From the NCBI GenBank assembly GCA_023384575.1, contig JAHDVP010000005.1:1-64000 (forward strand): DNA of 64,000 bases, written 5' to 3'. This document shows positions 11,106 through 15,464 of this stretch, piece after piece. The notes under the pieces were generated by a model. The model was not told the origin of the DNA and did not search any database. It was given only the letters and a program-made list of their open reading frames with translations. The position numbers and the translations under genes are program-made. Within the stretch, counting starts at the first letter, position 1. Each line of letters begins with the position of its first letter. This DNA comes from Acidobacteriota bacterium. Its GTDB lineage: Bacteria; Acidobacteriota; Vicinamibacteria; Vicinamibacterales; JAFNAJ01.

Positions 11106-12188
11106 ATGCTCACCCTCGGGCGATGTGGCGTGCGGGGCGCAGCCGTCGGGCTGGCGGCCGTCGTGGTCGCCGTGGCGGCAGAGGCCCAGAATCCGCCATC
11201 CGGGCCTGCGGGCTTCCATCCGTTTCTTGCAACGGGCATCGGGCTCACGGCCGGAGAGGTGGCGTCGCTCGTACAGGGCCGCGTTGTCGTGAAGACGCTC
11301 GACCCGGGCGACCGGCGCGAGGTCGGCCTCGCCGGCGTCGTGCGCATCGAGGCACCGCGCGAGCGCATGGTCGACGGCTGGCGGGACATCGTGGCGTTCA
11401 GGAAGAGTGACGTGGTCCTCGAGATGGGGACCTTCGGCGAGCCGCCCCGGCCGGGCGACCTCGCGGCCCTCACCGTCGACCGCCAGGACATCGACGACCT
11501 CGCGCAGTGCCGCCCCGGCTCCTGCAAGGTGCAGCTGTCGGCTGCCGACATCGGACGCTTTCAACGGGAGATCGACTGGCGGGCCGGCGATCGCACGGCG
11601 AAGGCGGCGGCGTTGATGCACGACGTTCTGCTCACGCACCTGCAGCGGTATCGGGCGCAGGGACTTGACGGGCTCGGCACGTACGACGACCGCCGCGACC
11701 CGGTCGTGATTGGCGACGAGCTGCGCTCGATCCTGGCGCAGTCGCCCTCGCCGCTCGACCTCGTCCCCGAGTTGCGCGACCACGTCGTCGCCTATCCTCT
11801 CCGGCCGCTGACCGCGGCCGAAGAGGGGTTCTACTGGTCGAAGGAGCGGTTCGGCTTCAAGCCGGTGACCGGGATCACACACACGACCATGTACGTCGAG
11901 CCGTCGCGCGGGGGCGTCGCCCTGCTCGTGTCGCGCCAGATCTACGCCAACCACTACTTCGACGGCTCGGTGGGTGTGTCGGCGCTGCTCGACGTGCCAG
12001 GGCGCGAGGGGGAGGCCTTCGATCTGCTCTACGTCAACCGGACCCGGAGCGCGCGGGTGACCGGCTTCTTCGGCGGCATCGCCCGCTCCATGGCCACGGG
12101 GCGCGCGCGCGACGCCATGGGGCGTTTGCTCGACGGGCTGAAGCGGCGCACCGAGCGGGCACCTGCTACCGGGAGTACAGGTCGATGA
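11106..12188 (+). CDS. Secreted protein of unknown function
   Basis: I do not recognise a family for this 360-residue product. It has a signal peptide (about 1-28, ending AEAQ), no later transmembrane segment, and one Cys pair (QCRPGSCKV, near residues 138-144). The mature part alternates helices and strands, and its most distinctive stretch is EEGFYWSKERFGFKPVTG followed by HTTMYVEPSRGGVALLVSRQIY. The gene follows the rhomboid gene by 16 bp and may be in its operon. Its last 23 bases overlap the 3' end of the convergent M64 peptidase gene, so the two ends are unusually tight. Confidence 0.75.
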   Translation: MLTLGRCGVRGAAVGLAAVVVAVAAEAQNPPSGPAGFHPFLATGIGLTAGEVASLVQGRVVVKTLDPGDRREVGLAGVVRIEAPRERMVDGWRDIVAFRKSDVVLEMGTFGEPPRPGDLAALTVDRQDIDDLAQCRPGSCKVQLSAADIGRFQREIDWRAGDRTAKAAALMHDVLLTHLQRYRAQGLDGLGTYDDRRDPVVIGDELRSILAQSPSPLDLVPELRDHVVAYPLRPLTAAEEGFYWSKERFGFKPVTGITHTTMYVEPSRGGVALLVSRQIYANHYFDGSVGVSALLDVPGREGEAFDLLYVNRTRSARVTGFFGGIARSMATGRARDAMGRLLDGLKRRTERAPATGSTGR

Positions 12189-13635
12189 CCCGTTCGATGC
12201 CCCGCTGGCACACCGGGCAGAAGCCGACGTCGTTCCGGCTGAACATCAGGCAGTCCGCTGCGGGACGGTACAGGCCCACGGCTTCGTAGCTCGCGCCCTC
12301 GAACGCGCCGACGATACCGGCGTGAGGCCCCTGGCCGAGCAGGGTCGTTTCGCGTGCCCGCTGTCGTTCGAACAGCGCCGTCATCTCGTGCTCGGGCGCG
12401 CCGGCGGCGCGCAGTTCCCGCCGCGTCTGCTGGTACTCCCGCTGGGCGGCCTCGAACTCGCTCTTCGGCCACGGGGTGGGCAGGGGGGTGCCCGGCGTCA
12501 CGAGGTCGGCCCACTTGAGGCGTTGCGGGTCCTTCAGGGCCGTGACGTTCGGCTCCCATGGCTCGGCGTGCTCGGTGCCGCCGGTGGCATAGGCGACATC
12601 CGACGTGTAGTACTCGTCGGCGAGCGCGGCGAAGTGGTGACCGAACTCGTGGATGAACAAGTATTCGGCGAAGGCGTTGCCCGCGGCCGCCGTGGCATGC
12701 GCCCCGAAGATGCCGCCGCCGCCGTAGTGCTCCTCGTTGACGAAGATCTGGAGGAAGTCGTAGGGCGCGACCGAGGCCGCCTCGCGCAGGGCGCGGTTGT
12801 CCTGCACGAGAAGATATCGCTCGCTGTCGAAGATGTTGTATTCGGCCGAGAGCGGGGTGCGCCGGGAGGTCCCGGCCTGAGGGCGATGCACCCCGGACGT
12901 CTCGGACGGCAGGTCGAGCGCACGGACGTTGAAATCTGCGCGACGCGTCTTGAATGGCTCCGTGGCGAAGAGTGCGTCGACCAGGTGCCGGACCTGTGCG
13001 TGGAACTTCGGCAGCTCCGCCTCGGTGTACCCCTCGCCGATGATGAGCAGGTCGACCTTGGTCGCCGGCGACCCGTGCTCGAACACCGTCCAGAGGCGGC
13101 CTCGCGGCACCGGCGGCGCCTGGTTCACGAAACGCGACGCGGGGTCGACGAGCGTCGACCAGATCTCGCGGAAGCCCTGGTCGGCCTCGCGGCGCTTGAT
13201 CACCACCTGCACGGGATTGACCGGCCACGGGAACCGCAGGCTGTCGTGGAAGGTGCGCCACTCGCTTCGCGCCTCCGGCGTCGTTTCCCATTCGCCGTAC
13301 AGCGACGCGAACCCACGAGAGAACACCACCTGGTTCGTGGCCCGATCGATCACCTCGACGAGGAACTTCCCGAGGTTCGTGTCGTCGATGAGGCGGGTGC
13401 GGCTGCCGGCCCACACGCCGTCGTCGACGATCCGATCGAGGGTGATGAGGCGCTCACCGGCGCGACCGGTGTGGAAGTAGTCGACCCGCATGGTCCGTCC
13501 GGTGAACGCCGCGTCGAACGCGGTGGCGGGCGCCGTGGCGGCCGGAGCGGGCCCCTGCGTGTGCGCCGCGAGACCGAGGAGTGACAGGACGGTGCAGAGC
13601 GACAGGGCGGCCACGCGGCGTGACATGTCGCTCAT
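12166..13635 (-). CDS. M64-family (IgA peptidase-like) secreted metallopeptidase
   Basis: A 489-residue exported protein with a signal peptide (about 1-27). The zinc-binding motif HEFGHHFAALADEYY is the HExxH-type signature of peptidase family M64, and it is followed by a glutamate-rich tail typical of that family. An N-terminal beta-sandwich domain (residues 40-170, FHTGRAGERLITLDRIVDDGVW and following) precedes the peptidase domain. It ends with a CLMFSRNDVGFCPVCQRGIE segment that may bind a second metal or form disulfides. It probably degrades extracellular protein. ATG codons at 13635 and 13626 are both possible; neither has a good ribosome-binding site. It is divergent from the gene at 13738. 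Confidence 0.87.
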   Translation of the reverse strand: MSDMSRRVAALSLCTVLSLLGLAAHTQGPAPAATAPATAFDAAFTGRTMRVDYFHTGRAGERLITLDRIVDDGVWAGSRTRLIDDTNLGKFLVEVIDRATNQVVFSRGFASLYGEWETTPEARSEWRTFHDSLRFPWPVNPVQVVIKRREADQGFREIWSTLVDPASRFVNQAPPVPRGRLWTVFEHGSPATKVDLLIIGEGYTEAELPKFHAQVRHLVDALFATEPFKTRRADFNVRALDLPSETSGVHRPQAGTSRRTPLSAEYNIFDSERYLLVQDNRALREAASVAPYDFLQIFVNEEHYGGGGIFGAHATAAAGNAFAEYLFIHEFGHHFAALADEYYTSDVAYATGGTEHAEPWEPNVTALKDPQRLKWADLVTPGTPLPTPWPKSEFEAAQREYQQTRRELRAAGAPEHEMTALFERQRARETTLLGQGPHAGIVGAFEGASYEAVGLYRPAADCLMFSRNDVGFCPVCQRGIERVIDLYSR

Positions 13636-13737: not shown

Positions 13738-14808
13738 ATGGCCTCGTCCAGGTTCAGGACGGCCGTCGTGTTGTCAGCGTGGCTCGTGGCGGGCGGTGCC
13801 GTGCCCGCCGCCGCGCAGGACTTCGTCGTGGCGCGCTTCGAGCAATACATGGAGGCGCTCCGGCAGCAGACCGGCATTCCCGGCCTCGCCGCCGCCATCG
13901 TGCACGACGGCGCGATCGTCTGGGAGAAGGGTTTCGGCTTCGCCGACGTCGATCGCGGCGTTCCCGCGATGCCCGACACGCTCTTCCACGTCGGGGGCCT
14001 CACCCAGAGTTTCTCGAGCGTCCTCGCCCTCCAGTGCGTCGAGATGGGGCGCATCCGGCTGACCGACCCCATCCAGCCGTTTGGCGTCACCGTGCCAGAG
14101 GCCGGCGCGGCGGTTGGTCACATCCTGACCCACACGTCCGAAGGGGCGCCCGGAGTGGCCTTCAGGTACAGCCTGGAGCGCATCGCGGCGCTGACGCCGG
14201 TCGTCGACTCGTGCCTCGGGCGCTATCGCGAGATCCTGGCCGAGAACATCCTCGAGCGGCTCGCCATGTTCGATTCGGTCCCCGGTCAGGACCTGGCGCT
14301 CGGGCTGGCGGCCGTCCCGCCGGACATGTTCAACGAAGGGATGGTGGCACGGTACGTCGGCGCCCTGCAGCGGCTGGCCGTGCCGTATCGTGTCGACGCG
14401 CGCGGGCGCGCGTCGGCCTCGGCGTACCCGGAAGCCGGGATCAACGCGGCCATCGGGCTCGTCTCGACCGTGCGCGACCTCGCGCGGTTCGACGCAGGTC
14501 TCGACCAGGCCGTGCTGCTGCGGCCGGAAACGCTGACGGTCGCCTGGGCCAATCCGCTCGGGCTCGACGGGCAGCGCCTGCCGCACGGCCTCGGCTGGTT
14601 CGTGCAGACCTACAACGGCACCACACTCGTCTGGCAGTACGGTCATTTGCCCGACGCCGGATCGGCGCTGGTGATCAAGGTGCCCGCACGGCGCCTGACG
14701 CTGGTCCTCCTCGCCAACAGCGACGGTCTGGCCGCGCCCTTCCAGTTGAGCCGGGGAGACGTCACGACGTCGCTCTTCGCCCAGGTCTTCCTGCGTCTCT
14801 TCCTGTGA
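13738..14808 (+). CDS. Beta-lactamase/PBP-fold protein lacking catalytic residues (probable pseudoenzyme)
   Basis: The 356-residue product has a signal peptide (1-27) and the overall order of class C beta-lactamase-like serine hydrolases. It shows TGIPGLAAAIVHDGAIVWEKGFGFAD, DTLFHVGGLTQSF, HILTHTSEG and the late HGLGWFV and YGHLPDAGSALV blocks. The S-x-x-K motif aligned to residues 87-90 reads G-L-T-Q, so both the nucleophilic Ser and the general-base Lys are gone. The Y-x-N motif reads Y-S-L at 144-146. It is therefore probably not a hydrolase but a binding or structural protein. The stop overlaps the GTG start of the beta-barrel gene, suggesting they work together. An AAGGGG element sits very close to the ATG. 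Confidence 0.85.
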   Translation: MASSRFRTAVVLSAWLVAGGAVPAAAQDFVVARFEQYMEALRQQTGIPGLAAAIVHDGAIVWEKGFGFADVDRGVPAMPDTLFHVGGLTQSFSSVLALQCVEMGRIRLTDPIQPFGVTVPEAGAAVGHILTHTSEGAPGVAFRYSLERIAALTPVVDSCLGRYREILAENILERLAMFDSVPGQDLALGLAAVPPDMFNEGMVARYVGALQRLAVPYRVDARGRASASAYPEAGINAAIGLVSTVRDLARFDAGLDQAVLLRPETLTVAWANPLGLDGQRLPHGLGWFVQTYNGTTLVWQYGHLPDAGSALVIKVPARRLTLVLLANSDGLAAPFQLSRGDVTTSLFAQVFLRLFL

Positions 14809-15464
14809 CTCCTGGCGTGGCCCCCACCTGCCCGGTGCGCCACGGGCGACGCCCCGCTTCGAGGTGCGTGGTCCTCGTCTTCGCGCTCGGCGTGTTGCTG
14901 CCGGCGCCCGCGCGCGCCGACTGGCACATCATGCCGTACCTCGCCGTGGCGTTCGGCGGCGACACCAACATCATCAAGCTGGGCCTCGATCCCGGCGGGG
15001 CCGTGAAGAAGCGGCACAACGGCTTCGGCGTCTCGGCCGGGTGGATCTCCAGCGGGTGGTTCGGGGTTGAAGGGGATCTGGCGTTCGCGCCCGCGTTCTT
15101 CGGCGACAGAAGCGAGACGGTGGCGACGAGCCGGCTGACGACGCTCTCTGGCAACATCGTCGTTCTCGTGCCCCGCCGGGTCGTTGGCGATTCGCTGCGC
15201 CCCTACGCGACCGGTGGCCTCGGGCTCGTCCGCGCGGGAGTGAGCTTCGACAGCGATGCCCTGGAGCCGCTGGCGCGCAACCTGGTCGGATTCAACGTCG
15301 GAGGCGGCGTCACCGGGTTCCTGACCGATCGGGCGGGTGTGCGGTGGGACCTCCGCTACTTCCGGGGCACGAGCGGAGACGACGACCTGTCGGTCACCGG
15401 CGGCACCGGCACGCCGACACTCAGCTTCTGGCGCCTCAGCATGGGCGTCGTGCTCAGGTACTGA
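14805..15464 (+). CDS. Small outer-membrane beta-barrel protein
   Basis: A 219-residue protein with a signal peptide (hydrophobic core CVVLVFALGVLLPA ending ARA) and eight or so amphipathic strands. It ends in an aromatic outer-membrane signature (LSMGVVLRY). Phrases such as YLAVAFGGDTNI, GWFGVEGDLAFAPAFFG and PYATGGLGLVRAGV resemble OmpA/OmpW-like eight-stranded barrels. The start is taken as the GTG at 14805, which overlaps the stop of the preceding gene as GTGA; in-frame GTGs at 14817 and 14835 are alternatives, since none has a strong ribosome-binding site. It is coupled to the inactive beta-lactamase-fold gene. Function unknown. Confidence 0.8.
   Translation: MTPGVAPTCPVRHGRRPASRCVVLVFALGVLLPAPARADWHIMPYLAVAFGGDTNIIKLGLDPGGAVKKRHNGFGVSAGWISSGWFGVEGDLAFAPAFFGDRSETVATSRLTTLSGNIVVLVPRRVVGDSLRPYATGGLGLVRAGVSFDSDALEPLARNLVGFNVGGGVTGFLTDRAGVRWDLRYFRGTSGDDDLSVTGGTGTPTLSFWRLSMGVVLRY

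Follow-up and report, generated by a model that had tools for sequence, protein, structure and literature searches.

The window, by which we mean the whole stretch of DNA analyzed, comprises 64,000 nt of an Acidobacteriota bacterium (Vicinamibacteria; Vicinamibacterales; GCA_023384575.1, contig JAHDVP010000005.1, positions 1-64,000). Two overlapping genes on its forward strand are considered here, together with their flanking genes on the opposite strand. The features are as follows:

12166-13635, opposite strand to the pair: M64 peptidase gene, flanking the pair on the pseudoenzyme side
13738..14808, + strand: pseudo-beta-lactamase gene (P0001), 356 aa, PF00144 fold with the catalytic motifs lost
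13738..13815, + strand: putative Sec-type signal peptide of P0001, approximately residues 1-26 (ending in PAAA, before QDF), read by eye in a region of low pLDDT
13996..14007, + strand: S-x-x-K site, where residues 87-90 read GLTQ
14035..14037, + strand: Cys100, present in 69/69 members of the order that have the position and in 0/7 aligned sisters
14167..14175, + strand: Y-x-N site, where residues 144-146 read YSL (Tyr retained, Asn gone)
14212..14214, + strand: Cys159, with the same distribution as Cys100 (69/69 and 0/7)
14635..14643, + strand: K/H-x-G site, where residues 300-302 read QYG
14805..14808, + strand: GTGA overlap of the pseudoenzyme stop (TGA, 14806-14808) and the barrel start (GTG, 14805-14807)
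14805..15464, + strand: outer-membrane beta-barrel gene (P0002), 219 aa, GTG start, PF13505, eight strands in the model
From 15526, opposite strand to the pair: large barrel gene with carboxypeptidase-regulatory and plug domains, flanking the pair on the side of the paired barrel

The overlap of the pseudoenzyme stop with the GTG of the barrel gene had already been described in a previous sequence-only reading of this DNA, and the GTGA arrangement makes translational coupling of both genes likely. Both proteins are apparently exported. The signal peptide region of P0001 contains no cysteine; an early N-terminal cysteine (query positions 6-17) is found in 9 of 42 members of the family.

P0001 matches PF00144 over residues 34-333 (Pfam, 4.2e-35), and this domain was found in all 37 members scanned. 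The AlphaFold2 model of P0001 with 12 relatives (pLDDT 86.0, pTM 0.85) has Pab87 as its best solved match (2qmi_C; Z 32.9, rmsd 2.4, 291 aligned residues). Further PBP-like hydrolases, together with LACTB and AmpC, come next (Z ~29-31), the Z range being 29-33 among the 50 structure matches listed. The final helix of the fold (346-355 of 356) closes the protein. The permanence of the fold blocks, as well as the likeness to class C enzymes for which structure prediction had been recommended in the sequence-only reading, thus hold in both profile and model, and the predicted structure supports describing P0001 as a pseudoenzyme with a class C/PBP-like fold. Pab87 (CubicO), Flp, LACTB and AmpC, which share this fold with the P0001 model, belong to the serine hydrolases or the penicillin-binding-like proteins and carry Ser and Lys; we know of no barrel partner for any of them.

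None of the motifs of an active class C beta-lactamase or S12 peptidase (S-x-x-K, Y-x-N and K/H-x-G) is found in P0001. Alignment of the family profile with solved structures places GLTQ, YSL and QYG on SITK, YLN and HSG of PDB 2qmi, and SNTK of Flp also falls on the GLTQ site. The same reading had noticed the substitution of Ser and Lys by Gly and Gln and that of Y-x-N by Y-S-L, and both are confirmed (the former at codons 13996-14007); the third motif, which it did not mention, is altered too. With Ser and Lys of S-x-x-K gone, the usual acyl-enzyme cannot form. Furthermore, no alternative alignment can recover a Ser/Lys pair, since the lysines of P0001 are just two (64 and 314) and S-x-x-K occurs nowhere in its sequence. 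A rescued pair elsewhere in the fold was also rejected for the family, as S-x-x-K is absent from any place in 38/42 rows of the dead clade, and the stray copies in the other 4 lie at four different places. The NCBIfam class C matches of P0001 are far below their cut-offs and were not used as a classification.

The loss of S-x-x-K is uncommon, not unique, in the source genome, where the motif is retained in 14 of the 16 PF00144 genes. Besides P0001, the exception is G000:C11:107343-108332 (L145/L004), which reads TASA at the site and does not group with the pair's clade in the tree described below. In G001, a short PF00144-like ORF of 258 aa (L117, G001:C560) contains S-x-x-K and gives a profile match from which the central part of the fold is missing.

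A family-profile search (E <= 1e-40) of 162 genomes of the source order retrieved the pseudoenzyme from 70 of them, in one copy each, belonging to 46/86 genera and without internal stops. Motifs were counted in 69 of the 70 copies, as one is a fragment lacking the site (G483); two others are partial (G484, G496). Lysine is absent from position 90 in 69/69 (over 70 copies: Q 54, E 11, G 3, S 1, missing 1), and serine from position 87 in 67/69 (G 39, D 23, N 3, S 2, E 1, A 1, missing 1). The two holders of Ser87 (G446 and G497) are of the same genus and both read SLTQ, with Gln at position 90. The orthologue survey proposed in the earlier reading thus gave 0/69 copies retaining S-x-x-K; relatives with the motif lie outside the clade, and no barrel of the paired type was seen beside them. 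Position 146 is P (45/69), A, L, T, E, S, R or Q, and N in 0/69; the K/H-x-G site is mixed (n = 69: QFG 33, HFG 17, TFG 8, HFS 4, others 7). Phylum-wide, 30/396 genomes match, 22 from the source order and 8 from other families. Among the named records 13 match, 12 of them from Acidobacteria or Vicinamibacteria and one, weakly, from a gammaproteobacterium (L084); this last protein (25% identity) and five duplicates were left out of the family alignment.

The ancestry of the pseudoenzyme was addressed with a midpoint-rooted maximum-likelihood tree of 62 rows (42 of the 70 dead proteins, 8 sisters and 12 other PF00144 proteins of the order). The 42 dead rows form one clade (100/99), with the sisters and the other PF00144 proteins outside. 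The nearest relatives outside the order are active-type sisters (loci L106, L107 and L109-L114; E 1e-104 to 1e-45), all of which retain S-x-x-K (8/8 loci read); G123 carries additional copies beyond these. Sister column counts exclude L113, which has an inserted SnoaL domain and whose S-x-x-K was read separately. The 7 aligned sisters carry G at position 146, also lacking the Asn, so Y-x-N alone cannot separate dead from active proteins. Both groups share a short stretch from HTS to Y-x-x, together with His, Trp, Asp and Asn residues, whereas the sisters differ from the dead clade in having S-x-x-K and in lacking Cys100 and Cys159. No barrel of the paired type was found near the sisters in nine regions of 8.5-19 kb, one of which (G144) ends 1 base past the gene while the others extend 1.5-11.7 kb downstream. 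A C-terminal DUF3471 occurs in 3/5 sisters scanned, once below Pfam's cut-off.

Broadly, the active-site residues drift in the dead clade, whereas structural residues and the C-terminal segment are conserved (in one conservation alignment most rows end one residue short at the C-terminus). Residues common to the dead clade and the active sisters are His132, Tyr144 (Phe in some), Tyr217, Asp247, Trp287, Trp299, Ser309 and Asn327, several with high counts in the order (Tyr144 62/69; Tyr217 and Asp247 70/70; Trp287 and Asn327 69/69). New residues, shared by 90% or more of the dead clade, are Tyr37, Gln44, Gly46, Pro82, Cys100, Cys159 and Phe301, from which P0001 itself deviates at two positions (Leu82 and Tyr301). 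No set of new residues resembling another catalytic site was found among the conserved columns of the dead clade, and the new near-invariant polar or reactive residues are limited to Cys100, Cys159, Tyr37 and Gln44. The two cysteines are the only ones of P0001 and the sole cysteines of the mature part in 69/69 members (two rows partial), and are placed by the model within helices 89-102 (Cys100) and 152-160 (Cys159). Their exclusivity and clade-specific gain make a Cys100-Cys159 disulfide probable. To judge by these columns, the fold core was kept, the reactive center was made inert, and a bond joining both helices was probably added.

The pseudoenzyme is under purifying selection, with dN/dS values of 0.145-0.40 in the 14 closest pairs. 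In the simplest history compatible with the tree and the alignments, Ser and Lys were lost once, the two cysteines were acquired once and the barrel was joined once, each of these events preceding the spread of the clade; under this single-loss history, the Ser87 of G446 and G497 would have reappeared later. Most simply, a two-gene unit would have been kept after a single loss of catalysis.

The second protein, P0002, matches PF13505 (4.9e-10; 40.3 bits vs. a cut-off of 28.7), the sole Pfam family at E <= 1, and is modeled with eight strands (pLDDT 81.8, pTM 0.72). The solved structures nearest to this model are OmpA, NspA, OprF, Ail and OmpW; P0002 resembles OmpA/NspA/OmpW-type barrels in predicted topology and size, with ~12-20% identity in the best matches listed. 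To our knowledge, no lactamase-fold partner has been described for such barrels. The claim that the pseudoenzyme has its own barrel partner is borne out across the order, since a paired barrel directly follows it on the same strand in 67/67 loci with a continuing contig; to follow means here a same-strand match to the barrel profile starting <=163 bases past the stop or overlapping the gene end, or, in one fused case, in frame. In the three remaining copies the contig ends 6 (G069) or 145 (G490) bases past the gene, or inside it (G484). In the fused case (G035; C17, L019/L125/L173), pseudoenzyme and barrel share one 526-residue frame, from which the final helix of the lactamase fold and the start of the barrel have been lost; as this is an assembled genome and the last helix is missing, a deletion in the assembly is possible. 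Furthermore, 41 paired barrels (excluding that of L072, whose match stops early in the record) form one clade (100/100), separate from 11 unpaired paralogues, and their sub-groups, compared by eye, largely mirror those of the pseudoenzymes. The unpaired paralogues, without a pseudoenzyme beside them, are found at G000:C23:453-1022 (L118) and 10 other loci, forming a group of their own.

No third gene is generally conserved near the pair among the families listed for 29 loci, which were built by single linkage; this procedure merged the genes of the pair with overlapping frames, and the list was limited to 45 families, so a diverse neighbor may be hidden. Neither was a recurring signaling gene seen beside the pair among these families and loci. 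Apart from the pair itself and overlapping opposite-strand frames, the top shared neighbor is an RND pump gene (6/29 loci, its partner genes in 5/29), and nothing was found in favor of the immunity-like inhibition that had been put forward for the pseudoenzyme from the sequence. Surface binding and peptidoglycan recognition, the other two roles suggested there, are candidate functions. An RND efflux set (AcrB-type, OEP and HlyD genes, with a single representative of each of these three families scanned against Pfam) lies ~0.6-7 kb from the pair in five of the 29 loci (L079, L081, L168, L170 and L173), four of which are related; L156 has an RND gene too. A DUF4390 gene adjoins the pair downstream in two loci (L083:7602-8141 and L125:5949-6491).

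The pair has a known counterpart in the MipB-MipA system (mipBA) of Pseudomonas aeruginosa, a beta-lactamase-fold protein and an outer-membrane barrel encoded in a two-gene operon, with the lactamase gene first to judge by its name. According to the published account, SXXK is missing from MipB and its YXN and KTG motifs are degenerate, both proteins reside in the envelope and co-purify, and polymyxin co-sensing upstream of ParS is proposed by the authors; MipB is a lipoprotein whose two 8-stranded C-terminal domains are predicted to contact the barrel, and MipA is a 12-stranded barrel of the MipA/OmpV family (PMC10936184). The likeness lies in a lactamase fold without SXXK encoded beside an outer-membrane barrel. 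On the other hand, the Acidobacteria barrel belongs to PF13505 and has eight strands, not 12; no lipobox cysteine is seen in P0001, and the extra C-terminal domains of MipB are missing from it. PF06629 (MipA) was found in 2/100 relatives (G038 and G050), both without the pair, and the Acidobacteria pair is not known to be linked to polymyxins or ParRS. Given the other barrel family, the lipobox not being seen and the missing C-terminal domains, the Acidobacteria pair compares with MipBA as an analogue and not as a member. This analogue points to envelope sensing rather than immunity-like inhibition, and the RND set near some pairs is suggestive only because MipBA affects an RND pump. Among the matches listed, no published account of the Acidobacteria pair was found in the open-licence literature.

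On these grounds, we give an even chance to a reading in which both genes constitute an envelope unit, with the dead hydrolase docked on its barrel as an outer-membrane receptor or co-sensor. The first protein would be exported to the periplasm, where its class C/PBP-like serine hydrolase fold would be stabilized by the clade-specific Cys100-Cys159 disulfide; the second, translated from the overlapping next gene, would form the 8-stranded outer-membrane barrel. The barrel's periplasmic side would then be the docking site of the pseudoenzyme, which would act as the ligand-binding or signal-relaying half of the receptor, as has been proposed for MipB on MipA. The parts of this reading differ in strength. 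The adjacency of the genes, their invariant pairing wherever it is visible, their co-descent and their apparent export make a physical complex most likely, and we hold it with good confidence; a sensing role is a tentative proposal, to which we lean less than to its absence. From the fold, a peptidoglycan fragment or an envelope-active compound would be a natural guess for the ligand. The fused frame of G035 speaks for such a unit, but it is a single case among 67 and possibly an assembly deletion. Against a receptor stand the presence of Ser87 in G446 and G497, the lack of a recurring signaling gene among the neighbor families listed, and the predicted barrel contact of MipB, which uses C-terminal domains absent from P0001.

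The same data can be read in other ways. The dead PBP-like domain could bind peptidoglycan without cutting it while the barrel anchors it, tethering the outer membrane to the peptidoglycan as a two-protein OmpA. Such a role would suit the PBP/DD-peptidase-like fold of the P0001 model, the OmpA-like model of the barrel and the maintenance of residues shared with the sisters (Tyr144, Tyr217, Asp247, Trp287 and Asn327); however, the Pfam scan detected an OmpA-type peptidoglycan-binding domain in neither P0001 nor P0002, and the variation at the motif positions (G, D, N, S, E or A at 87; P in 45/69 at 146) indicates that the former substrate site has not been preserved in the way a kept ligand would lead one to expect. 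We regard this tether as rather unlikely, though deserving of consideration. A ligand-free role is more doubtful still: the fold would be a mere scaffold, a dedicated factor escorting the barrel during assembly or closing it as a plug. Invariant pairing and co-descent agree with it, as does the drift of active-site residues against conserved structural residues and C-terminal segment, but 11 barrel paralogues lie without such a neighbor in the loci covered, and OmpA, OmpX and other small 8-stranded barrels are not known to require a private factor.

The two remaining explanations concern the pseudoenzyme itself. That it has remained enzymatic by means of a remodeled active site could be argued from the conservation of His132, Tyr144, Tyr217, Asp247, Ser309 and Asn327 and from Ser87 in two related genomes. 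Nevertheless, these retained residues are those common to the active sisters, lysine at position 90 is found in 0/69 copies, both Ser87 genomes read SLTQ, and S-x-x-K is either missing altogether (38/42) or scattered over four different places (the other 4), leaving this explanation very improbable. Least credible of all, indeed close to discarded, is a pseudogene caught in the middle of its decay: the degeneration of all three catalytic motifs is what such a gene would display, but its presence in 70 genomes of 46 genera without an internal stop, its dN/dS of 0.145-0.40, and two cysteines found throughout the dead clade and in no aligned sister speak against it.

Returning to the receptor reading, the MipBA precedent means that the idea of a dead lactamase fold with a barrel is not unheard of. 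What is new here is its wide fixation in one order, the single loss inferred by comparison with active sisters, the cysteine pair and a different barrel. Active sisters, a dead enzyme and its constant barrel partner together make up a clean natural series in which catalysis was apparently lost once, and this makes the role of a beta-lactamase fold that does not cut testable. Moreover, a clade devoid of the known catalytic residues implies that a PF00144 match in environmental DNA is not in itself grounds to suspect resistance. Placed beside MipBA, the pair suggests that beta-lactamase folds may have been repeatedly recruited into outer-membrane receptors. It is possible, although we would not yet favor it, that the serine beta-lactamase fold was independently turned more than once into the dead periplasmic half of a barrel receptor, in Pseudomonas and in an ancestor within the Acidobacteria order, with descendants in several of its families; if this convergent-receptor reading is true, the Acidobacteria pair would represent a new and widely kept class of outer-membrane sensors.
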